DNA of 64,000 bases from Treponema sp. GTDB lineage: Bacteria; Spirochaetota; Spirochaetia; Treponematales; Breznakiellaceae. The translations under genes and the position numbers were made by a program. The DNA lies in assembly GCA_009782955.1 (NCBI GenBank), contig WRIB01000001.1, positions 62,001 through 126,000 on the forward strand, in the 5' to 3' direction. Below, in pieces: positions 1 through 13,252 of the stretch (the stretch's first letter is position 1; each line of letters opens with the position of its first letter). A model generated the notes under the pieces. The model was not told the DNA's origin. It did no database searches and was given only the letters and a program-made list of their open reading frames with translations.

Positions 1-392
1 GTAACATATAAGCACTTTCCGTTTGATAAAATCGCTTCCAGATGGCTATTTACCATAGGTTTGATCATTTTTAATTTATTGACATTCAAAACACAATATT
101 TGCTGATTTTAATAAATCCTATGCTTTTTAATTTCTCATGCACCTGAATTAGGCTGCTTTTAACAGTAAAATTTCCCTCTTCAGAACATATTATTGTTTT
201 TTTATCGACACTTTCAATATAATAAATATCGGAAGTATTAACAAATACTATCCCATCATCTGAATAACATTCAATTTGGGTATCAAACGATTTTATTAAT
301 GCAAGTATACGATCAATGGTTTTATTTTTTACAGGATACGTAATAAATATTTCAATATCCTTTTGTATTTTTCGCTCATGTTTAATAATCAT
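1..392 (-). CDS. LytTR DNA-binding domain protein, truncated by window start (absent from ORF track)
   Basis: Minus-strand frame from ATG at 392 is open to base 1: MIIKHERKIQKDIEIFITYPVKNKTIDRILALIKSF...DIYYIESVDKKTIICSEEGNFTVKSSLIQVHEKLKSIGFIKISKYCVLNVNKLKMI; typical LytTR layout (YIE...t..g.f.....l..v...L...gFikIsKs.vvN...I). Confidence 0.75.
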   Translation of the reverse strand, partial: MIIKHERKIQKDIEIFITYPVKNKTIDRILALIKSFDTQIECYSDDGIVFVNTSDIYYIESVDKKTIICSEEGNFTVKSSLIQVHEKLKSIGFIKISKYCVLNVNKLKMIKPMVNSHLEAILSNGKCLYV

Positions 393-489
393 AGTTTATT
401 CCACTAGCTAAATTCTAATACATTTTAACATTGCTACCATTTTTGTCAAGTATATTTAAGAATAATTTCAAAACATTTTAGGGCGTATA

Positions 490-558
490 GCACATAACGT
501 TCCGGCTGAGCCCGAGCCGCCAAAAAGGCGGCGCAGCGCTAACAGACCTGTTATGTGC
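490..558 (-). other. attC-like integron recombination site B
   Basis: GCACATAAC...GTTATGTGC terminal inverted cores around ccgagccgcc-aaaaa-ggcggcgcagcgct; same architecture as site A; directly downstream of the minus-strand ORF ending at 598. Confidence 0.65.
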
Positions 559-597
559 AGTAACCCCCCTTATTCTTCTATACATTGTAAATGAAAA

Positions 598-1113
598 TTA
601 ATTAAAATCTTTTCTAGAAACTATACATATCTCATCATTACGATCATTATTTAAGAGATACTTTCTAAATATTTTTATTAGTTCTTCACTCTTTTTAACA
701 GAAATTTCATCAATAATTATTAGGACAGAAACATATGAATAAATTATTTCTGATTTTTTACGAGAATCATAATTTGCTTTTAAAACCCTTTGTTCTACAC
801 GACCATGCATCGTTGAAATATCATCATATCCAGGCATAACATTAAGTTCGCTACCAACAGGAACTTCTGGATTAAATCCTGTACCTTCATATGTTGTACG
901 ATATGTTTCTTTTGAAAGAACTGAACCTTCAATATTATAATGAAAATAAACAAATATTATTGGGTTTTCATATCCTAATGACAGAAGAATTTTTTCTGCA
1001 TTTTCATATATATTAAGCCTCTCCCTTTCAATATAATTAAAAGTTTGCGTACTTGTACATCCAAAAAATATTAGCATAATGATTATTATAAAAAAAGATG
1101 AGGCTTTATTCAT
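598..1113 (-). CDS. hypothetical lipoprotein, integron-cassette-like gene
   Basis: Signal peptide with lipobox (MLIFFGCTS); flanked by attC-like sites. Confidence 0.6.
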   Translation of the reverse strand: MNKASSFFIIIIMLIFFGCTSTQTFNYIERERLNIYENAEKILLSLGYENPIIFVYFHYNIEGSVLSKETYRTTYEGTGFNPEVPVGSELNVMPGYDDISTMHGRVEQRVLKANYDSRKKSEIIYSYVSVLIIIDEISVKKSEELIKIFRKYLLNNDRNDEICIVSRKDFN

Positions 1114-1186
1114 AATAAAATTATAATATATATTTTCTTTTTTTCAATACATCTAATAAAAATAATAATAAATATTTTGTGGTTAT

Positions 1187-1253
1187 TTCGCATAACGTTC
1201 AAGGAACCCGAGCCGCCGTAAGGCGGCGAAGCGCTAACCGTTTGTTATACGAA
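1187..1253 (-). other. attC-like integron recombination site A
   Basis: ttCGCATAAC...GTTATACGaa cores, central ccgagccgcc-gtaa-ggcggcgaagcgct stem; located just after the minus-strand ORF ending at 1281. Confidence 0.7.
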
Positions 1254-1280
1254 GTGTACCCGTATTTTTATTACTAATAT

Positions 1281-1817
1281 TTAAGTAATTGTTTTTAATT
1301 TTATATCGCATTCATTATATATTTTCTCAGCTTTTTCTAATGTTTCTCGACCCTTTTCTTTATATTTGCTTTTATTAAGTATATCATCTTCCTCTTTTGT
1401 TATAATTACAAATTCGAGTTCAGATAACGTAGTTTTTATTTCATTAATTGAACCACATTCTTTACATCTTTCAATAATGCTTCCTAATGGTACAATATGT
1501 TCGAAGAATAATGGCTCATATATTGGGTCTTTTCTTTTTTTATACCATTCTTTATACATTTTGCTGTTTAATAAATTTATTTTTATTCCATTTATACACG
1601 ACAAGAATGCTCTTTCAGAGATTCTTGTCGGTTTGAATTTCTGTCCAAAAATATGTAATACTTCTGATATTCCCTTTTTTAATGATGAACGTATATCCTC
1701 ATTATCAAAAGCAGAACAATGAGTTACAATATAAATATATTCACATATATCCTTAAATTCTACTTCCATTGAATTGGATTCTAGTGGAATCATATTCATT
1801 AAAGGGCTGTTTTTCAT
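1281..1817 (-). CDS. hypothetical protein, integron-cassette-like gene
   Basis: 178-aa ORF between an isolated core (1885-1892) and attC-like site A. Confidence 0.6.
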   Translation of the reverse strand: MKNSPLMNMIPLESNSMEVEFKDICEYIYIVTHCSAFDNEDIRSSLKKGISEVLHIFGQKFKPTRISERAFLSCINGIKINLLNSKMYKEWYKKRKDPIYEPLFFEHIVPLGSIIERCKECGSINEIKTTLSELEFVIITKEEDDILNKSKYKEKGRETLEKAEKIYNECDIKLKTIT

Positions 1818-1880
1818 TTATTCTCCTTTTCTAATTCATTTTATATTTTAATATTCCTTTTGTCAAAATATTTAGGGAGC

Positions 1881-1892
1881 ATTTCGCATAAC
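1881..1892 (-). other. isolated integron core site (GTTATGCGAAAT)
   Basis: atttcgcataac identical over 12 nt to the edge of attC-like site A (1185-1196). Confidence 0.4.
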
Positions 1893-2016
1893 TCTATATA
1901 TACGCAATTAATGGCGTATAACATCCATAATTGACATTGTATGCGCAACAAAACTGTACGCGCAATACCAATCCTCTCTTTTTCCTCTGTGATCTCCGCG
2001 CCTCCGCGTAAGGAAT

Positions 2017-2250
2017 TTACAAAGCGGTTTCCCGCAGCTTCTCCAGAATTTTGACCATTGCAAGGGTATCCGGGCGGCAATAGGCAAGGAGGTCGGCGCA
2101 TATATGCTGCCGCTCTTGCGGGCTTTTGCCGGGCAGTTGTGCGAAGGCAGTCATGGCATCTCTTCCGTTGTGGATAAGGTCAAGGGCGTTATAATCAAGT
2201 TCGGGATCATTCGGGCAGAGGGCGAAAAGCACTTTTTTAATGTTTCACAT
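2017..2250 (-). pseudogene. C-terminal remnant of a DUF2779-type protein
   Basis: NIKKVLFALCPNDPELDYNALDLIHNGRDAMTAFAQL...LLAYCRPDTLAMVKILEKLRE; reading frame blocked upstream by TGA near 2250. Confidence 0.5.
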
Positions 2251-2382
2251 TGTCAAAGAGTGATAAAGTGGTCAAAATTTTACGGGGGTTTATTTCTGAA
2301 GCTGTAAAGCAGTCCGACTCCGGAGACTTGCCGTGCAAAGAATCATGTAATACTATGAATTAGCGCCGAAACGGAGGTAACA

Positions 2383-3777
2383 ATGGGGCAGAAAAAACTA
2401 AGCGTTGGACAAAAGCTTGGGTTCGGTATTTTTGACCTGGGCGGGAATATGTTTTTTACAATAATGGGGTTTTGGTGCCTTAAGTATCTTACCGATGTCG
2501 TAGGGCTTATGGCGGCAATGGCAGGTGCTGCTGTAATGATAGGCAAAATCTGGGATGCGGTTACAGACCCGATGATGGGTTATATTTCCGACAGAACAAT
2601 TACCCGCCTGGGACGGCGGCGTCCGTATCTTTTAATTGGGGCAATTCCCATGATGCTGACATTGTGGCTGTTCTTTACCGCCCCTGAAATTTCCAGCCAG
2701 TTATTGCTGATGTTTTGGGCTATGGGGATCCTGATGCTGGTTAATACCGTCCAGACAGTGATTAACGTTCCTTATGCTTCCCTGACTCCGGAACTAACTG
2801 ACGATTACCATGAACGAACCAGCCTGAACGGCTACCGCTTCGGTTGCGCGGTGTTTGGTACAATTTTGGGAGCTGCGGCGATATTACCCATAGTAAGTGC
2901 ATTTACCGGAGAAAAGCATGGCTGGTCCATGATGGGGCTTATCCTGGGGGCCATAATGGTTTTGGTTACCCTGCTTACCTTTTTCGGTACCAAAGAAAAA
3001 AAACATACACGGGCGGATATTCCTACCGAAGGCTTTTTTTCTACCTATAAAGCAGTGTTTTCCAACAAGCCCTATGTAATCCTCTTTTTAACCTATGGCC
3101 TTCATTTAACAGCTGTTACTTTTTTACAGAGTATCCTGGCCTACTATACTGAATATATTTATCCGACAGAATTTGTTATGATGCTCAGGGATTTTCCGCT
3201 TATAGGAGACCCTGCGGCAAGTGAAATGGCGCTCCGTGAAATGCTTACAAACCTGTCCATGATGGGACTGCTTCTGACGGCTATGATATGTATTCCCATC
3301 TCTGTTTTTGTGTCAAAAAAGATAGGGAAAAAATGGACATACCAGATCTGTTTTATCGATCTTTTTATTGCCTGTGCCGCTGTTTCTACCATTGGCCATC
3401 TGCTGCCGCCCGAATTATTCCTTTGCCTTTTGCTGTTTGCGGGAATCGGGGTTGGCTTTAGTTATGTTGCGCCCTTTGCAATGGTACCCGATACGGTGGA
3501 ATTCGATGCAGTTAAGACCGGCGAACGAAAGGAAGGGGCCTACTACGGAATGTGGACTTTTATTTCCAAATGCGGAATAGCTTTGTCAGTTTTTATTTCA
3601 GGGCTTATACTTAATATCGGAGGTTATGTTCCAAAAGCGGTTCAGATGCCGTCAGCAAGGCTTGCAATCAGGCTAATTGTCGGACCCATTCCGGCGTTTG
3701 TTTTTCTTTGTGCCTTTATTCTGATGCAGTTTTATCCACTGGATGAAAAAACCTATAAAAAACTCATGGGACAATAA
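2383..3777 (+). CDS. GPH-family sugar:cation symporter (MFS)
   Basis: FDLGGNMFFTIMGFWCLKYLTDVVGL...IGKIWDAVTDPMMGYISDRT..LGRRRPYLLIGAIP; SD ggaggt upstream. Confidence 0.9.
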   Translation: MGQKKLSVGQKLGFGIFDLGGNMFFTIMGFWCLKYLTDVVGLMAAMAGAAVMIGKIWDAVTDPMMGYISDRTITRLGRRRPYLLIGAIPMMLTLWLFFTAPEISSQLLLMFWAMGILMLVNTVQTVINVPYASLTPELTDDYHERTSLNGYRFGCAVFGTILGAAAILPIVSAFTGEKHGWSMMGLILGAIMVLVTLLTFFGTKEKKHTRADIPTEGFFSTYKAVFSNKPYVILFLTYGLHLTAVTFLQSILAYYTEYIYPTEFVMMLRDFPLIGDPAASEMALREMLTNLSMMGLLLTAMICIPISVFVSKKIGKKWTYQICFIDLFIACAAVSTIGHLLPPELFLCLLLFAGIGVGFSYVAPFAMVPDTVEFDAVKTGERKEGAYYGMWTFISKCGIALSVFISGLILNIGGYVPKAVQMPSARLAIRLIVGPIPAFVFLCAFILMQFYPLDEKTYKKLMGQ

Positions 3778-3778
3778 A

Positions 3779-4570
3779 ATGAAGTACTTAAATGACTATC
3801 AAGCCAAAGAATTGATCCTTGATATTGGCCGCCGGATGTACACTAAAAACTATGTGGCGGCCAATGACGGGAATATTACCTGTAAAACAGGGCCTGATAC
3901 GATCTGGGCAACTCCTACCGGAGTTTCCAAAGGATATATGAAGGCGGAAGAACTTGTTAAAATGAGCCTCGACGGAACAGTAATTCAGCAGGGCAGTTTA
4001 AAGCCTTCTTCTGAAATAAAAATGCATCTGCGAATCTACCGGGAAAACACCAAAGTTCGGGGAGTCTGTCACGCACACCCGCCGGTTTCCACTTCCTTTG
4101 CCATTGCGGGAATAAGCCTGGACAAAGCCATATACCCGGAAGCTTTGGTAAATCTGGGTACGGTGCCGGTGGTACATTACGAAGCTCCCGGTTCACAGGG
4201 GATTCCCGATTCCGTTGCTCCCTATTGCAATGATTACAATGCCTTGCTTTTGGCCAACCATGGCGCTTTGGCCTGGGGAGAAAGTCTTATGGAGGCATGG
4301 TACCGCCTTGAGTCGCTGGAACACTATGCGATGATCCTGATGTATACGGGAAACATCATTGGCAAGGCTAATGTACTCAGTTGTGATCAAGTCCGGGAAC
4401 TTATTAAAATTCGGGAAAAGCTTGGAATCCAAACCGGCGGCATTCCCCCCTGCTGCGCTGCCGAAGCCTGCAACCTAACCGATGTTGGCGTGAGTAATGT
4501 TACGCCTCAGCCCGTGAATACTGCTGACATAGAAAGTATTGTCCGTTCAGTATTAAAAAAACTGAGTTAA
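3779..4570 (+). CDS. class II aldolase/adducin family protein with encapsulation-peptide-like C-terminus (probable 5-methylthioribulose/5-deoxyribulose-1-phosphate aldolase)
   Basis: NDGNIT, SSEIKMHLRIY, CHAHPP, LLANHGALAWG motifs; start ATG at 3779 rather than 3743; C-terminal TPQPVNTADIESIVRSVLKKLS. Confidence 0.85.
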   Translation: MKYLNDYQAKELILDIGRRMYTKNYVAANDGNITCKTGPDTIWATPTGVSKGYMKAEELVKMSLDGTVIQQGSLKPSSEIKMHLRIYRENTKVRGVCHAHPPVSTSFAIAGISLDKAIYPEALVNLGTVPVVHYEAPGSQGIPDSVAPYCNDYNALLLANHGALAWGESLMEAWYRLESLEHYAMILMYTGNIIGKANVLSCDQVRELIKIREKLGIQTGGIPPCCAAEACNLTDVGVSNVTPQPVNTADIESIVRSVLKKLS

Positions 4571-4602
4571 CAGGGCGGATTATTCTAAACTGGTTTAATG
4601 CA

Positions 4603-5394
4603 TCATTCTTCTGCAAAGCAAATTTTTGTTCCGATTTTTTCCATCTCTGCCAAAGTTTCAAGTTGTTCAGGTTTAAAGGTTGATTGATTGTCCACAATAA
4701 TACAGTCGATAGAATCCACATTACAAACCGAATAGACGGATGTTGTCCCGATTTTAGTGTGATCTGCGAGGATAAACACTTCTTTTGAACGCCGGATAAG
4801 GCTCTTTTTTACTTCAGATTCTTCCAGTGTAATATCTGAAAGACCGCTTTTGGCGCTTAGCGACTTGGCGGAAATAAAACTTCTGGTAAGGTTAAAGATT
4901 TTTTCAAACTCATAAATCATGGGTCCTACCAGGGTCAATGCGGACTTTCGCACTATACCGCCGTATAACAGGGTATTAATGGTTTGGGAATTGGAAAGCT
5001 GCAGCGCGACATGAATGCTGTTGGTAATCACTGTTATTTCCATATCAAGCAGGAAATTGCACATCTGCAAGGCTGTTGTACTGGCATCCAGACCGATCAC
5101 ATCGCCGTTATTAACAAAACCGGCAGCCTTTTTGGCAATGGCGGTTTTGCTTTCTATATTATTTTTAAATCTTTCTTCTATTGAAAGGTCATGTATACCC
5201 TTGTTGTTATTTTGAATTTTAACCCCGCCGTAAACACGGGATACATCCCCCTGCATTTCAAGGGCATCAATATCCCGGAGTATGGTCATGTACGAGACGG
5301 AAAATTGCTTCTGCAATGAGTTAATATCAACAAAATCTACTTCTTTCAGGTGGTCAAGAATTGCCTGTTGTCGGACATAAGGTAATCGTTTCAT
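4603..5394 (-). CDS. DeoR-family transcriptional regulator
   Basis: MKRLPYVRQQAILDHLKEVDFVDINSLQKQFSVSYMTILRDIDALEMQGDVSRVYGG; start chosen at 5394. Confidence 0.9.
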   Translation of the reverse strand: MKRLPYVRQQAILDHLKEVDFVDINSLQKQFSVSYMTILRDIDALEMQGDVSRVYGGVKIQNNNKGIHDLSIEERFKNNIESKTAIAKKAAGFVNNGDVIGLDASTTALQMCNFLLDMEITVITNSIHVALQLSNSQTINTLLYGGIVRKSALTLVGPMIYEFEKIFNLTRSFISAKSLSAKSGLSDITLEESEVKKSLIRRSKEVFILADHTKIGTTSVYSVCNVDSIDCIIVDNQSTFKPEQLETLAEMEKIGTKICFAEE

Positions 5395-5499
5395 AATCTG
5401 GTATACTAGGGTATATGGTTTTTTAACATTTTTCAACAAGAATCAACATTTTTTATCATTAAATTAAAAAATAATTTGATAAACCATGTGATTTTATTA

Positions 5500-5526
5500 T
5501 TGACAACTCTTTTTTTGTGCTATACC
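5500..5526 (+). promoter_or_regulatory. putative sigma-70-type promoter for the ABC operon
   Basis: TTGACA (5500-5505), 15-nt spacer ending TGC, TATACC (5521-5526). Confidence 0.35.
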
Positions 5527-5580
5527 ATAAAAATCGTGAAACCGAAAAACTGTTTCTACAAACTAATTCAGGAGGAAAAA

Positions 5581-6725
5581 TGGTGAAAAAACTACTTGGT
5601 ATCACCTTAATGGTGATTTTAGTCCTGGCGCTTATCGGCTGCGGAGGCGGTTCAAAGACTGCCGGCACCGGTAATGCAGAGCTTGACAAGTTGTATCAGA
5701 AATACTTCCCCGATCAAATGAAATTTGCAAATGGGGTAATTAAGATTGCTGTAATAAGGAACCTTAATGCAGGGGATCATACCCAGCAGTTCCTTGACGG
5801 CTGTGTTTCTGAAGGAACGGCCATGGGCTTTATTGTTGATACCTTTATTACCAACGGAGACAATGCAAAATGCCAGGAAACCATTGCTCAGGTTATCCAG
5901 AAGGATTATGCAGGTATTATTCTTTCCCACGGTGAAGCAGGTTATACTTACGATGCCCTTAAACCGGCAGTTGACAAGGGAATGAAAGTCGTAACCTTCG
6001 ACTCTGTTCCCTATCTTAATGGCGATCCCAACGGAACTATCCTTACCGGCGTAACCAGTACTGCACAGGAAGATTTCAAACTTGCCGAGCTTTCCCTTTC
6101 TTCCATTGTGGACAATTTCCCTGCCGACAAACAGCCTATTAAAGTAGTCCGTGCCTGGATGGGTCCCGGCGTTCCTCCCCTGGATCGGCGGCAAACCATC
6201 TATGATCGTTATGTGAACGAAGGCAAAATTGTCGAAGTCGCCCTGGTTGGCCCGGTTGATTATTCCAATCCCCGCGGCGGTACCCAGGATTCCTTTGCCG
6301 CCCTGCTTCCCCGGCTTACTCCCGGTACAGTAGATGCCATTTGGGGTTCTTATGACGAACTGGGCAAGGGCTGTCTCCAGGCTTTGAACGATGCCGGACG
6401 GTCGGATATCCTGCTTATGTCAATCGATATTTCCAACGACGACATTAACCTTATGCTTGAATACCCCCACATCTGGGTTTCTACAGCCGCTGTCGATCCC
6501 AAACTTATCGGCATTTCCAACATGAGGCTTCTGGCCGCCAAGTTTGCCGGTGAGTCAACCCCGGATACTTACAATCTGGATGCCCAGGGTGTAAAGACAA
6601 CTCAGCTTAATTCTTCTATTAACATGACCAATATCGCCACCGTGGTACCCGGTTGGGGCCAGGAACAGGGCGTATGGGATCATTTTGGCTGGATGGCTGA
6701 AATTAAAGCCGCTGCTAAGAAGTAA
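5581..6725 (+). CDS. sugar ABC transporter substrate-binding lipoprotein
   Basis: MVKKLLGITLMVILVLALIGCGGG lipobox; Peripla_BP-like fold sequence; SD aggagg at 5571. Confidence 0.9.
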
Positions 6726-6739
6726 TACCGGAGCCTGAA

Positions 6740-6773
6740 GAGCTTGCTCCAAAATGAATTTTGGGGCAAGCTT
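6740..6773 (+). terminator. intergenic stem-loop between binding protein and ATPase genes
   Basis: agcttgctccaaaat-ga-attttggggcaagct; near-perfect palindrome, no U-tract. Confidence 0.5.
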
Positions 6774-6787
6774 AATAGGTCAGGGTA

Positions 6788-8383
6788 ATGGCCCGGGCGG
6801 GCATTTTTTGCCGGGAATGGGCCTTTCATTGTACTCCATCGATTCCGAGGTACAGCAGTTTGGAACAGCAGGCAAAATCAACCCTTAGCATGAGGGATAT
6901 CTCAATAACATTTCCTGGTGTGTATGCTCTTTCCCACGTTGATTTCAATATAGAAAGCGGCAGAATTTATGCCCTGATAGGGGCCAATGGCGCCGGTAAA
7001 TCAACCCTGATGAAGGTTCTTTCCGGAGTCAACAGCCACTATACAGGTCAAGTTTTTATTAATGGAAAAGAAGTTGAAATTCGTTCTCCCAAAGCCGCCA
7101 AGGAACTGGGCATAGAAATTGTCTATCAGGAAGTAGACGTGGCCCTTACCCCATCCCTTTCGGTGGCGGAAAATATAATGACCAATGTACTGGTCAACAA
7201 GATGGGGAAAAAGCAATTTGTTAACTGGAATAATATTCGCAGCGCCGCCAATGAAGCTCTCCGGCGGCTTGGCGTTGATATAGATGTACGTAAACCAATT
7301 TCCGATTTAAGTCTGGCAGAAAAGCAAATGGTTCTATTGGCCAGCGCTGCCAGGGAACGGTGTAAATTTCTGATACTCGATGAACCTACAGCCCCTCTTT
7401 CCAACACGGAAACAGAAAACCTTTTTAAGGTAGTGCGGTATCTGGCCAAGGAAGAAAATGTAGGAATAGTTTTTATTTCTCACCGGTTGGCCGAGCTCTT
7501 TGAAATCTGCGAACATATTACGATAATGCGGGATGCCCAGGTGGTTAAGGATATGGAAATTACTCCCGATCTGACCATTAATCAGATTGTGGAATATATG
7601 CTGGGCCGAAAGTTTGATGAAGTATACGAGAAAACAACTGTTCCCATTGGTGATGTAGTGCTGGAACTGAACAACCTTACAGAAGAAAAAGAACGGATTC
7701 GGAACATAAACCTTAGCGTAAGAAGCGGAGAAATTGTGGGAATTGCCGGTCTTGTAGGGGCGGGAAAAACAGAGCTTTGCAAGACAATTTTCGGCGCTTA
7801 CCGCAGTTCTTCCGGAACGGTAAAACTAAAAGGCAAAGATATTACTTCCCGTTCTCCTTCCCAGGCGGTAAAACGCGGTCTTGCCCTGGTACCGGAGGAA
7901 CGGCGCAAGGAAGGGGTTATTGTTATTGATCCGGTGTATGCCAATATTACTATTTCGGCGCTGCATAAATTTCTTAATAAAATTCAATTTGTGGTAAAGC
8001 GCCGCCAGCTTGAAGCTACCGGTAAAATAATACATGAACTGGGAATTAAAACTCCTTCAAAATTTCAGATATTGGCCAACCTTTCCGGCGGAAATCAGCA
8101 AAAAGTGGTAGTAGGCAAATGGCTGGTGTCCGATGCGGATATTTATATTTTTGATGAACCTACCAAAGGGGTTGATGTAAGATCCAAACATGATATTTTT
8201 AAGTTAATTGAAGACCTTGCAGCCCAGGGCAAGGGTATTATTTATGCTTCCTGTGAATTTTCCGAAATAACAACCATCGCCGACAGGGCTTATGTTATGT
8301 ACGATGGCGGTATTGTAAAAGAAGTAAAAGTATCGGAATCCAGCGAAAAAGAACTGCTCTACTATTCAACCGGAGGTAATTAA
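6788..8383 (+). CDS. sugar ABC transporter ATP-binding protein (RbsA/MglA-like, two ABC domains)
   Basis: GANGAGKSTLMKVLSG, LILDEPTAPLS, GLVGAGKTELCKTIFG, LSGGNQQKVVVGKWL; TTG at 6860 with GAGG upstream is an alternative start. Confidence 0.93.
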   Translation: MARAGIFCREWAFHCTPSIPRYSSLEQQAKSTLSMRDISITFPGVYALSHVDFNIESGRIYALIGANGAGKSTLMKVLSGVNSHYTGQVFINGKEVEIRSPKAAKELGIEIVYQEVDVALTPSLSVAENIMTNVLVNKMGKKQFVNWNNIRSAANEALRRLGVDIDVRKPISDLSLAEKQMVLLASAARERCKFLILDEPTAPLSNTETENLFKVVRYLAKEENVGIVFISHRLAELFEICEHITIMRDAQVVKDMEITPDLTINQIVEYMLGRKFDEVYEKTTVPIGDVVLELNNLTEEKERIRNINLSVRSGEIVGIAGLVGAGKTELCKTIFGAYRSSSGTVKLKGKDITSRSPSQAVKRGLALVPEERRKEGVIVIDPVYANITISALHKFLNKIQFVVKRRQLEATGKIIHELGIKTPSKFQILANLSGGNQQKVVVGKWLVSDADIYIFDEPTKGVDVRSKHDIFKLIEDLAAQGKGIIYASCEFSEITTIADRAYVMYDGGIVKEVKVSESSEKELLYYSTGGN

Positions 8384-8385
8384 AG

Positions 8386-9387
8386 ATGAGCGCAAAAGCC
8401 GCGGGACGGGATCAAAAGGCAGTAATTGTCGATTTTATTGCCAAGTGGGGGGTACTGCTTACCATTGCTGCCCTGCTTATTGTTTTTTCAGTGTCCATGC
8501 CTTTTTTCAGAACTATCTCCAATATGATTACCATTATCCGGGCAGTATGTATTGTTACCATTGTTGCAATAGGAATGACTTTTGCACTGACAGTTAATGG
8601 TATTGATCTTTCGGTCGGTTCTGCGGCAACCATGTCCAATACCGTATGTATGACATTTTTTATATGGTTTTCCATGGGAACCACAGTATCTGGAACCCTT
8701 TTGGCAATTTTATTAACGCTGTTTATTTCTTTGTTTATTGCGGCTATTAATGGTTTCTTGATAGTTAAACTTAAAATATTTGATATGCTGGCTACCCTGG
8801 CAACAATGTTTATGTTTGAAGGGGTGGCCATGACCTATGCCGGCGGCGGGGCCATTAATGAACGCATGGTACGGCCCGACGGCACGACAGCCACGGGAAC
8901 AGTGCCGGCGCTTCTGCGTGTCTTTGGACGGGAACCGTGGATTATCATTATAATGCTGTTATTGGTTTTTATGGCCTTTCTTTTCCTTACGTTTACCAAG
9001 CATGGCCGTTATATGTATGCCGTAGGTTCCAACATCGAAGCTGCACGGCTTTCAGGCATTAATGTTCAGAAATACCGGGTAATGGCTTATGTATTCAGCG
9101 CCTTGCTTGCCTCCATTGGAGGAATTCTGGTAGGCGCCCGTGTTGGCAATGCACAGATTAACTCCGGCGCTCCGTATCTTATGGGAGCCGTGGCGGCAGC
9201 ACATATAGGGATCTCGGTGGCCGGTATAGGACGGCCCAATGCCTTTGGAACCCTGGCAGGCGCTTTTCTTATCGGTGTATTGGAAAACGGTCTTATTATG
9301 GCTTCGGTTCCCTACTACACGGTAAACATTTTTAAGGGTCTTATCCTGGCGGTTGCCCTGGCCCTTAATTCAATACGTAAAAAATAA
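8386..9387 (+). CDS. sugar ABC transporter permease (RbsC-like)
   Basis: VNGIDLSVGSAATMSN, AVGSNIEAARLSGINVQKYRVMAYVFSALLASIGGIL. Confidence 0.93.
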   Translation: MSAKAAGRDQKAVIVDFIAKWGVLLTIAALLIVFSVSMPFFRTISNMITIIRAVCIVTIVAIGMTFALTVNGIDLSVGSAATMSNTVCMTFFIWFSMGTTVSGTLLAILLTLFISLFIAAINGFLIVKLKIFDMLATLATMFMFEGVAMTYAGGGAINERMVRPDGTTATGTVPALLRVFGREPWIIIIMLLLVFMAFLFLTFTKHGRYMYAVGSNIEAARLSGINVQKYRVMAYVFSALLASIGGILVGARVGNAQINSGAPYLMGAVAAAHIGISVAGIGRPNAFGTLAGAFLIGVLENGLIMASVPYYTVNIFKGLILAVALALNSIRKK

Positions 9388-9446
9388 ATCCCCTGCAGGG
9401 ATTAAATTTCCGGCAGAGGGTGATTGGTTTTTACAAGGAGGAAGTC

Positions 9447-10670
9447 ATGTCTCGTTTTTCCAAATACTTTTTGATGAAAGAAGGGGATATCTGTGAGTAT
9501 GTCCGTGATCAGTTGCCTGATTACTTTGCCGTCAATTCAAATATTACCGTTAAGGAAATAGGCGACGGCAACCTGAACTATGTATTCAGGGCAGTGGAAG
9601 AAGGGACGGACAAATCTATTATCGTCAAGCAGGCAGGAGAACAGCTTCGCATTTCCGCCGAGATGAGGATTACCACCGATCGAAACCGTATTGAATCGGA
9701 AATTCTTATTATTCAGGACAAATTTGCCCCCGGCCTGGTTCCCAAAATTTTTAAGTACGATACGGTAATGTGCGCCTGCCTTATGGAAGACCTTTCAGAC
9801 CACCGGCTTATGCGCTATGCCCTGATGGAACATCAGACATTCCCAAAATTTGCCGAAGACGTTACCACCTATATGGTAAATACCCTGCTTAATACCACTG
9901 ACGTTGTTATGGAACACAAGGAAAAAAAGGAACTGGTTAAAAGCTTTATTAACCCCGAACTCTGCGAAATTACCGAAGACCTTATCTATACCGAACCCTA
10001 TAACGATGCCAAAGGACGGAATATTGTAACGCCGGAAAATCTTGAATTTGTAAAAAAAGAACTGTACGGAGATAAAGCCCTGCACCTGGAAATTGCCAAA
10101 CTTAAGTTTGACTTTATGAACAATGCCCAGGCGCTGCTTCATGGGGATCTTCATACAGGTTCAATCTTTGTTAAGCCGGATTCGACCATAATCTTTGATC
10201 CCGAATTTGCCTTTTACGGTCCCATGGGTTACGACATAGGCAATATTATTGCAAACCTTTTCTTTGCCTGGGACAACGGGGATGCTGCCGGGAACACTTC
10301 TTTTTGTGAATGGACTCTCCGTACCGCAGAAGAAGTGATCGATCTCTTTAAATCCAAATTTATTGCGGAGTACGGAAAAAAAGTTACCGATTTAATGGCA
10401 AAGACCGAAGGATTTGCCGAATATTATCTGGATACAATTATTGCCGACACTGCCGCCGGAGCCGGTACAGAGCTTGTCCGCCGTACCGTGGGAATGGCCC
10501 AGGTAAAAGATGTTACAACCATTGCGGATAAAAACAAGCGGATCAGAGCGGAACGGATCAATATACTCTGTGCCAAAGACCTTGTTATGAACAGGGTAAA
10601 ATTCAAAACAGGCAAAGATTTTACCGCTTCTTTCAGCAAAGCTATTGCAGCGGCGGATAAAACCCTGTAA
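9447..10670 (+). CDS. mtnK: S-methyl-5-thioribose kinase
   Basis: IGDGNLNYVFR, VKQAGEQLR, LLHGDLHTGSIFV, IFDPEFAFYGPMGYDIGNIIANL; SD aaggagg upstream of ATG 9447. Confidence 0.9.
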   Translation: MSRFSKYFLMKEGDICEYVRDQLPDYFAVNSNITVKEIGDGNLNYVFRAVEEGTDKSIIVKQAGEQLRISAEMRITTDRNRIESEILIIQDKFAPGLVPKIFKYDTVMCACLMEDLSDHRLMRYALMEHQTFPKFAEDVTTYMVNTLLNTTDVVMEHKEKKELVKSFINPELCEITEDLIYTEPYNDAKGRNIVTPENLEFVKKELYGDKALHLEIAKLKFDFMNNAQALLHGDLHTGSIFVKPDSTIIFDPEFAFYGPMGYDIGNIIANLFFAWDNGDAAGNTSFCEWTLRTAEEVIDLFKSKFIAEYGKKVTDLMAKTEGFAEYYLDTIIADTAAGAGTELVRRTVGMAQVKDVTTIADKNKRIRAERINILCAKDLVMNRVKFKTGKDFTASFSKAIAAADKTL

Positions 10671-10706
10671 ATACCATTGGTTTGAATTTTTAACAAAGGA
10701 AAAAGT

Positions 10707-11783
10707 ATGGCAGAAAACATTTTATCCATAGACACCGTTGCACTGGACGAAGAAAAACAGGCACTTAAAATTATTGACCAAACCAAACTTCCCGGAACTG
10801 TGGAAATTCTTTATCTGACAAAACAGGAAGATATTTTCCAGGCAATATACCTGTTAAAAGTAAGGGGAGCGCCGGCTATAGGCGTGGCTGCCGCCATTGG
10901 GGTGTACCTAGCAGCGCTGGAAATAGACGAAAGCTCTTACGATGGTTTTTACGGCAGGTTTAAAAAAGCCAAAGATTACCTTGCAAGTTCCAGACCCACG
11001 GCGGTAAACCTTTTTTGGGCTCTCGACCGGATGGAAAAGGTGGTGCTGGATCACAAAGAAGAAAGCCCGGCCAAACTTAAAAAATTTCTCCATGACGAAG
11101 CGGTAAAAATACGGGATGAAGATATACAGGTCTGTAAATCCATCGGTGAATACGGATTAGAACTTATAAAAGACGGCGACGGCATACTTACCCACTGCAA
11201 CGCCGGCCAGCTTGCCACAGTGCGTTACGGCACAGCTTTGGCGCCGGTTCATCTGGGCCGGGAACGGGGGATGAATTTTAAGGTTTTCTGTGATGAAACC
11301 CGGCCGCTTCTTCAGGGCGCAAGGCTTTCGGCTTTTGAAATGGTTTCCGCCGGAGTCGATACTACGATTATCTGTGACAATATGGCAAGCATGGTAATGA
11401 AAAACGGCTGGGTAAAAGCTTGTTTTGTGGGCTGCGACCGGGTAGCCGCCAACGGGGATGCGGCCAACAAAATCGGCACTTCCGGTGTGGCGATCCTTGC
11501 AAAGCATTACGGAATTCCCTTTTATGTATGCGCACCAACATCAACCATCGATATGTCGATCAAAGAAGGTAAAGATATTGTGATTGAGGAACGGAAAGCG
11601 GAAGAAGTTACGGAGATGTGGTACAGTGAACGTATGGCCCCAATGGGGGTAAAGGTCTTTAACCCTGCATTTGATGTTACCGATCATGGCCTGATTACCG
11701 CAATTGTTACAGAATTCGGTATTGCAAAACCTTCTTATTCGGAGAGCTTAAAAGCCATTTTTGAAAAGAAAAAAACTATCTGA
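10707..11783 (+). CDS. mtnA: S-methyl-5-thioribose-1-phosphate isomerase
   Basis: [66 protein letters not shown]. Confidence 0.93.
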
Positions 11784-11849
11784 GCTTTTCCAAAACGCTG
11801 TTAATTGAGTTGGTTTCAAAGCTCTGTTAGTTTCGGCACAAGAACAAAT

Positions 11850-12521
11850 TTAATTTTCCAGCAGCTTCCGTACTTGTTCTGCCATGGCTTTGGCAAAGTT
11901 ACGGTGATCGTCAGCTTCCCAGTGGATTCCGTCGACAGGACTGGAAGCGCCGATCACTTCTCCGGCATCAAAAAAAGCAGCACCGCATTCTTTGGCGCAT
12001 GCCCTGTAGTGGGCGGCCATTTTCCGGGATATTTCAAACGCATCGGGAGAAATTATTTGCGCAAAGGCTTCTGCTTCGGTAATTGGCACCGGACATACCA
12101 TCAGCACTTTCGGCTGCCCGTCAGCAGGTCCGCATTCCGAAGAAAGAGCAGCCTTTGCTACAAGCTGTGCGCCGTGGGATATTTCGTACGGGCTTGGGTT
12201 AAAACGGCGTTTTAAATCGTTGGTTCCCAGCATAACAATTACCAGATCGAGCGGGCGATGACTCCGTAATATGGGAATAAGCTGACGCAAACCGTTGCGA
12301 TCGCCTTCTACCGGGTCTTCCAGACAGGTGGTTCTTCCGTTTAAGCCTTCTTCCACAACCCAGAATGCAGGATCGGCGCTGCCCGGCATGCCGGGATTTA
12401 TACCGGGCGGGTTAAGCAGGGATGCCATAACCGCCGGCCAGCGTATTGAATAATCAAAACGGCCGCCTTTGGGATTATAGCCCCAGGTATTGCTGTCTCC
12501 ATAACAAAGTACGGTTTTCAT
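11850..12521 (-). CDS. SGNH/GDSL-family hydrolase
   Basis: VLCYGDSNTWGYNP, IVMLGTNDLKRRF, DGIHWEADDHRNFA. Confidence 0.85.
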   Translation of the reverse strand: MKTVLCYGDSNTWGYNPKGGRFDYSIRWPAVMASLLNPPGINPGMPGSADPAFWVVEEGLNGRTTCLEDPVEGDRNGLRQLIPILRSHRPLDLVIVMLGTNDLKRRFNPSPYEISHGAQLVAKAALSSECGPADGQPKVLMVCPVPITEAEAFAQIISPDAFEISRKMAAHYRACAKECGAAFFDAGEVIGASSPVDGIHWEADDHRNFAKAMAEQVRKLLEN

Positions 12522-12538
12522 CCTGAATTTCCTTATTG

Positions 12539-13252
12539 TTAAAATTCCAGGGCAAAACTTTTATTAACTTTATCGATCAAGGTAACATAAACTATTAACC
12601 CTACCGAAAACAATACAAATACAATAATTAACTGCCATAAGACCTGGGTGTGTATCCATTCAACAATTTCTTCGGCGGCAATATCGCAGGCAATCAGTCC
12701 AACCACTTCGCCGTCTTTATTTATAATAGGTTCATAGACGGAAATGGTGGAACCGTATTCTTCGGTCTTGTCTATGGTTCCGTACTGAACTGTTCCGGTG
12801 TTAAATGCTTTCATTGCGGCGCCGTCCCATTCATCCAGGTCTTCCTGCATTCCTATCGGAGAAAAGCTTTCCCCGCCGACCCTGTCGCTGCCGTCTATAA
12901 TGTAATTAAAAATAGTTCCTTCATCCTGTGCCATGGTGTAGAGGTATAAACAGTCGGTGTCTTGTTTTATTCCGTAAAGCCTTTGCTGTGTTATTGAATA
13001 ATACGGATCGGAAGGATTAAGGCTTTTTGCAAGCTTTTCGAACGATTCGGCATTAATCAGATTTAAAGCCCGGTCTACCGGCGGACGGGCATAATGAGAG
13101 CCGACAAACTTAATTACAGTATTTACCTGCAATACCGAAGTAATCATAAATACTGCAAAAACCGCTGATAAAAAGAACACAAAGAAAAAGGTTATTCTGA
13201 ATTTAAGGGTGCTTTTATTTTTTTCCTGTGCTTCCAGGGCATTTAATTCCAT
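12539..13252 (-). CDS. membrane protein with Cache-like extracytoplasmic domain and no cytoplasmic output domain
   Basis: Two TM segments flank ...VYEPIINKDGEVVGLIACDIAAEEI; ends shortly after TM2. Confidence 0.65.
   Translation of the reverse strand: MELNALEAQEKNKSTLKFRITFFFVFFLSAVFAVFMITSVLQVNTVIKFVGSHYARPPVDRALNLINAESFEKLAKSLNPSDPYYSITQQRLYGIKQDTDCLYLYTMAQDEGTIFNYIIDGSDRVGGESFSPIGMQEDLDEWDGAAMKAFNTGTVQYGTIDKTEEYGSTISVYEPIINKDGEVVGLIACDIAAEEIVEWIHTQVLWQLIIVFVLFSVGLIVYVTLIDKVNKSFALEF

Follow-up and report, generated by a model that had tools for sequence, protein, structure and literature searches.

A class II aldolase of Treponema sp., encoded in a cluster with mtnK and mtnA homologues, ends in a helix resembling the encapsulation peptides of bacterial microcompartments (BMCs). 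Its genome carries a shell locus, tails and shell genes are associated among its relatives, and many genomes fuse the tailed aldolase, mtnK/mtnA and shell genes in one cluster. We infer, with a probability of roughly 0.8, that this aldolase is the third enzyme of the DHAP shunt for disposal of 5-deoxyribose and that its tail is an encapsulation peptide directing it into a microcompartment; packaging, substrate and shell sharing are all inferences. The window, the whole 64,000-nucleotide stretch analysed here (C1:62001-126000 of a 2.56 Mb assembly, 86% complete), contains the following features.

2383..3777, + strand: MFS/GPH-type sugar transporter (PF13347), directly 5' of the aldolase
3779..4570, + strand: class II aldolase (Ald2/DrdA-like), 263 aa from its likely start Met13; ORF from 3743
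4424..4516, + strand: variable aldolase linker, core to tail (low pLDDT in AF2, variation among relatives)
4517..4567, + strand: C-terminal encapsulation-peptide-like amphipathic helix NTADIESIVRSVLKKLS (alignment, matrix, AF2, hydrophobic moment)
4603..5439, - strand: DeoR-family regulator, 3' of the aldolase and opposing it (resemblance by inspection; start codon uncertain)
5517..6725 (likely start ~5580), + strand: ABC importer substrate-binding protein (neighbour conserved in relatives)
6788..8383, + strand: sugar-type ABC importer ATPase (ORF list, relatives' loci)
8386..9387, + strand: ABC importer permease (ORF list, relatives' loci)
9420..10670, + strand: mtnK, 5-methylthioribose kinase family, without tail (TIGR01767, 406 bits, above cut-off)
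10707..11783, + strand: mtnA, methylthioribose-1-phosphate isomerase family, without tail (TIGR00512, 410 bits, above cut-off)

The aldolase ORF (3743-4570, + strand, stop codon at 4568-4570) matches PF00596 over residues 24-198 (E 6.4e-47). Its true start is probably Met13 (3779) and not the first ATG at 3743, since relatives align from there. Numbered from Met13, E79, H98, H100 and H161 are invariant in 70 sequences, and we take them, by analogy with FucA, to be metal or catalytic residues. The stop of the MFS transporter gene lies one base ahead of the likely aldolase start. Separately, the ATG at 3743 overlaps the MFS gene. An Rfam search of window positions 1-13000 gave no match.

The original prediction described a linker and a terminal amphipathic segment after the aldolase core, and alignment, tail score and structure model all bear this out. 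In ORF numbering, the linker spans residues 228-258 and the 17-residue tail residues 259-275. Tails were scored with a 15-residue matrix built only from the N-terminal encapsulation peptides of aldehyde dehydrogenases (AldDHs) from related BMC loci. By this matrix, the aldolase C-terminus reached 23.5 bits, against a median of -3.9 for 1178 C-termini and 8.5 bits for the runner-up terminus in the window; coincidence was rejected as an explanation of the tail. About 1 in 1178 C-termini scored as high (0.0008), which is an upper limit because the aldolase ORFs were still in the control set. The helical hydrophobic moment of the tail ranks in the top 1.4% of 14-mers in the window. An AF2 model based on 70 homologues (pLDDT 93.7, with a confident core) places an end helix at residues 248-262 (from Met13), following a linker with block pLDDT of 72-80; it was used in place of an earlier, poor model from 14 close sequences (pLDDT 51). 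In the alignment of relatives, the end helix is conserved, whereas the linkers differ both in length and in sequence. A search of the genome with the bare 18-residue tail returned only the aldolase itself. The aldolase meets three criteria of a putative cargo protein with an encapsulation peptide, namely an amphipathic end helix, a flexible linker, and a genome that contains shell genes.

The window is free of shell genes, as had been noted at the outset, and the suggested search of the full genome located one BMC locus, on contig C3, to which all shell matches of this genome belong. A search for other cargo with matching ends had also been suggested, and the C3 cargo indeed carries encapsulation-peptide-like ends. 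The prediction would have failed had no genome with the tailed aldolase contained shell genes, which the aldolase's own genome already rules out. The C3 locus reads DeoC1, DeoC2, PduL, BMC-P, AldDH, PduS-like, BMC-T, BMC-H, BMC-P, BMC-H, BMC-P, DeoC3, with an AldDH of the acylating type (NF011927) and three DeoC-type aldolases (pfam01791). Two of its four PF00936 domain matches fall within a tandem BMC-T, so that there are three PF00936 genes, which with three BMC-P genes make six shell genes. RpiB (pfam02502) is missing from this locus and has its only match in the genome on contig C23; the locus is therefore SPU-like, but not SPU by definition. The class II aldolase, encoded on C1, is not part of the shell locus on C3. 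A 9-mer comparison detected no operator shared by the mtn and BMC promoters, and this incomplete genome yielded no MTA/SAH nucleosidase scoring above the family cut-off. We infer that the DeoC shell probably takes up the aldolase as an outlying cargo; with C3 as the shell, two aldolases that both yield acetaldehyde would probably share one compartment. As a side observation, the second DeoC (L005:9507-10346) ends in a 4Fe-4S-like stretch, CxxCGxCxxKCPxG, which is conserved in six related genomes; we are not familiar with any DeoC aldolase that has a ferredoxin-like tail.

Among 149 genomes of the same family, 20 have an aldolase match at E<=1e-30 and 27 have shell genes. Shells are present in 9/13 genomes whose aldolase has a long extension, compared with 18/136 of the others (Fisher 2.6e-5); of the four long-extension genomes that lack a shell, completeness is only 62-72% for three and 84% for the remaining one. 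The same tail type (...DIEAIVREVL..L), on linkers of differing length, occurs in ten family genomes including the window's own. Seven tailed genomes, again including the window's own, carry a full DeoC-type BMC locus or a large part of one; in an eighth (G019), a 1.6 kb fragment of it is present. In G090, the aldolase and BMC clusters share a contig, about 42 kb apart. G043 (Treponema Po218_bin16) goes further, with Ald2, substrate-binding protein, ABC ATPase, permease, mtnK and mtnA encoded on one strand and followed by PduL, BMC-P, AldDH, PduS, BMC-T, BMC-H, BMC-P and BMC-P. All PF00936 matches of G043 lie within this mtn-BMC locus, the only BMC locus found in this genome, and DeoC was not detected in it. 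Its AldDH and BMC-H are 67.5% and 75% identical to those of the DeoC BMC of the window's genome, and by this sequence comparison the G043 locus keeps that chassis and differs in its signature enzyme. Transketolase and RuBisCO-like protein genes come next after the BMC genes.

These relatives bear on whether the tail is still in use. It could be a legacy of an ancestor that, like G043, had a dedicated mtn-BMC operon, on an aldolase that is now cytosolic and not taken into the DeoC BMC, in keeping with the location of aldolase cluster and shell locus on different contigs and with the failure to detect a shared operator. We regard this as unlikely, since the helix persists in the ten family genomes despite the drift of the linker, which suggests selection, and since 8/10 of these genomes have shell genes, the other two being only 62-72% complete.

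We then consider a wider survey, in which the aldolase alignment was run against one genome per species and the best 80 loci were retained with flanks of up to 10 kb. The tail class was set by extension length, which is bimodal (<=31 vs >=38), together with the matrix, as a strict helix regex missed several obvious tails. Shell genes were in range of 32 of the best 80 loci. A shell gene lay within 10 kb of 32/44 long-extension copies but of 0/36 short ones (p 1e-12), and shell genes occurred anywhere in the genome for 46/53 versus 10/37 of 90 relatives (p 9e-9); both p values ignore relatedness. A core-only tree displayed 11 tail-state changes, with three pairs on well-supported branches, too few for a test; nearly all phylogenetic pairs went in the expected direction, at low power. 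The C-terminal lengths of MtnK and MtnA did not differ between tailed and tail-less loci, indicating that the extension is a feature of the aldehyde-making enzyme alone.

At least 26 loci, spanning Treponema, Clostridia, Synergistaceae, Bacillus, Paenibacillus and Lacrimispora, combine a tailed aldolase with mtnK and/or mtnA and with one or more shell genes. Examples are Paenibacillus dendritiformis, Bacillus sp. P14.5, Salipaludibacillus, Gracilibacillus, Lacrimispora, Calidifontibacillus, several Clostridia MAGs and a Synergistaceae MAG. Within this count, L124 is included on the strength of one BMC-P fragment alone, and for L087 the only partners in range are mtnA and BMC-P genes. Fetching more sequence revealed mtnK/mtnA downstream in L112 and L120, and shell genes for L086 and L097, whose first flanks were short. 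In Bacillota relatives, the class II aldolase lies within the shell locus; in four Bacilli (L105, L114, L115, L126), the tailed cluster and the shell genes are apart in the genome, as for the window. None of the best 80 loci had a DeoC match listed. The proposal that the cargo pathway is methylthioribose/5-deoxyribose breakdown is the best fit to these many fused clusters.

Several loci depart from this pattern. L154-L158 form a separate clade of tailed, shell-linked aldolases, 41-47% identical and without mtnK/mtnA in range, at least one of them with a Zn-type alcohol dehydrogenase gene; they may represent another type, similar to GRM5. At L099, shell genes are present but mtnK/mtnA are not in range; L100 and L107 begin near contig ends. 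Three further observations concern accessory genes. A RuBisCO-like protein (PF00016) is encoded in or beside the mtn-BMC locus in L061 (387-3536), L128 and L135, accompanied by a transketolase in L061, and could act on the same ribulose-1-phosphates. CoA-transferase genes stand beside the mtn-BMC cluster in L104 (14629-20713; by Pfam) and in L098 and L090 (by sequence resemblance). L104 also carries Fe-alcohol dehydrogenase and Dak1 genes.

It had been stated that a tail shared by aldolases of organisms without microcompartments would count against packaging. This holds for 7/53 tailed copies, the remaining 46 being in genomes with shell genes. The tailed copies without PF00936 are those of G131, G092, G140 and G047 (MAGs, 62-84% complete), L101 (a MAG), L111 (Neobacillus niacini F8) and L124 (Christensenella, one partial BMC-P kept), and two of the seven are not explained by genome incompleteness or decay. 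These seven copies speak for another role of the helix, such as oligomerisation or partner binding unrelated to compartments, to which we attach hardly any weight given that shell-adjacent copies are 32/44 of the tailed and none of the extension-less ones, and that the tail matches AldDH encapsulation peptides. The substrate could instead be a 6-deoxyhexose phosphate (fuculose- or rhamnulose-1-phosphate), as in PVM and GRM5, with mtnK/mtnA as incidental neighbours: the aldolase has its fold and family in common with fuculose-1-phosphate aldolases, and class II aldolases are promiscuous (PMC4207490). We find this very improbable, because at least 26 loci across phyla have mtnK and/or mtnA together with the tailed, shell-linked aldolase, and because ORFs, Pfam and NCBIfam revealed no fucose or rhamnose pathway gene next to the aldolase in the window. 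The NCBIfam FucA equivalogs also score far below cut-off; a fuculose-type identity was considered and rejected.

Our preferred reading, an encapsulated aldolase of the 5-deoxyribose pathway, suggests the following mechanism. The importer would act at the membrane, and MtnK and MtnA in the cytosol, outside the shell. 5-Deoxyribulose-1-phosphate (or methylthioribulose-1-phosphate) would enter the shell, where the aldolase, kept inside by its tail, would cleave it to DHAP and acetaldehyde (or methylthioacetaldehyde). DHAP would exit, and acetaldehyde would be converted in place to acetyl-phosphate by the acylating AldDH and PduL, with PduS possibly assisting redox. Such in-place use of the aldehyde would pull an unfavourable aldol equilibrium forward and save acetyl-phosphate. 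Both DeoC and Ald2 would supply acetaldehyde to one dehydrogenase in the window's genome; in relatives, the same aldolase has a BMC operon of its own. Sequence does not discriminate between 5-deoxyribose and methylthioribose as the main substrate.

On balance, and with less assurance than for the aldolase itself, we favour an undescribed microcompartment class, a 5-deoxypentose (DHAP-shunt) metabolosome, in spirochaetes, Synergistaceae and Bacillota. It would occur on at least two shell/AldDH backgrounds, SPU-like and PVM-like, and many organelles termed PVM-like would therefore have been assigned the wrong sugar, while in some genomes the outlying tailed aldolase would let a DeoC shell serve a second substrate. 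If this is true, 5-deoxyribose and methylthioribose, by-products of radical-SAM and polyamine metabolism, are microcompartment substrates, and a catalogued BMC class of guessed function gains a directly testable substrate. Moreover, with signature aldolases from two loci in one shell, BMC cargo could not be read from the shell locus alone.

The gene cluster of the aldolase corresponds to the Drd pathway or DHAP shunt (PMC6079011, PMC10986504, PMC12632272), with kinase, isomerase, class II aldolase, transporter and opposing DeoR-type regulator. DrdK, DrdI and DrdA of B. thuringiensis convert 5-deoxyribose to DHAP and acetaldehyde, with an equilibrium that favours the sugar phosphate (PMC6079011). 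In E. coli, mtnK-mtnA-ald2 supports growth on 5-deoxyribose by respiration and not by fermentation (PMC10986504), a limit that a tailed-aldolase BMC suggests a way round. The E. coli shunt is under MtnR, an opposing DeoR-type repressor (PMC12632272), and the DeoR-family gene of the window is placed likewise. The solved DrdA chain (6btd, 222 aa) aligns only to residue 228 of the window aldolase and therefore lacks the tail, and these three papers do not mention a microcompartment. We found no open-access paper (supplements not included) linking a microcompartment to methylthioribose, 5-deoxyribose, methylthioadenosine, mtnK or the DHAP shunt, and an earlier mention elsewhere is possible. In A. 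woodii, the gene that immediately follows pduU/pduV2 (Awo_c26570-26590) encodes a methylthioribose kinase and was called 'unrelated to BMC function' (PMC7593272).

Among known microcompartments, the C3 locus resembles SPU (PMC4207490, PMC8217296) in its DeoC, AldDH, PduL, PduS and BMC-H/T/P genes and in acetaldehyde as the expected intermediate. It differs in that RpiB, common to all published SPU subtypes (PMC8217296), is elsewhere and that Ald2 is not a cargo of SPU as described. PVM, GRM5 and ACI also use a class II aldolase as signature enzyme, which in ACI carries a C-terminal encapsulation peptide (PMC8217296), but they have other kinase/isomerase genes and another aldehyde, and encode the aldolase in the shell locus. 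The Bacillota loci match what has been published on PVM-like loci (PMC4207490), for which a PVM-type (fucose/rhamnose) substrate was called likely (PMC8156839); by contrast, mtnK/mtnA and an ABC importer in their clusters point to 5-deoxypentoses.
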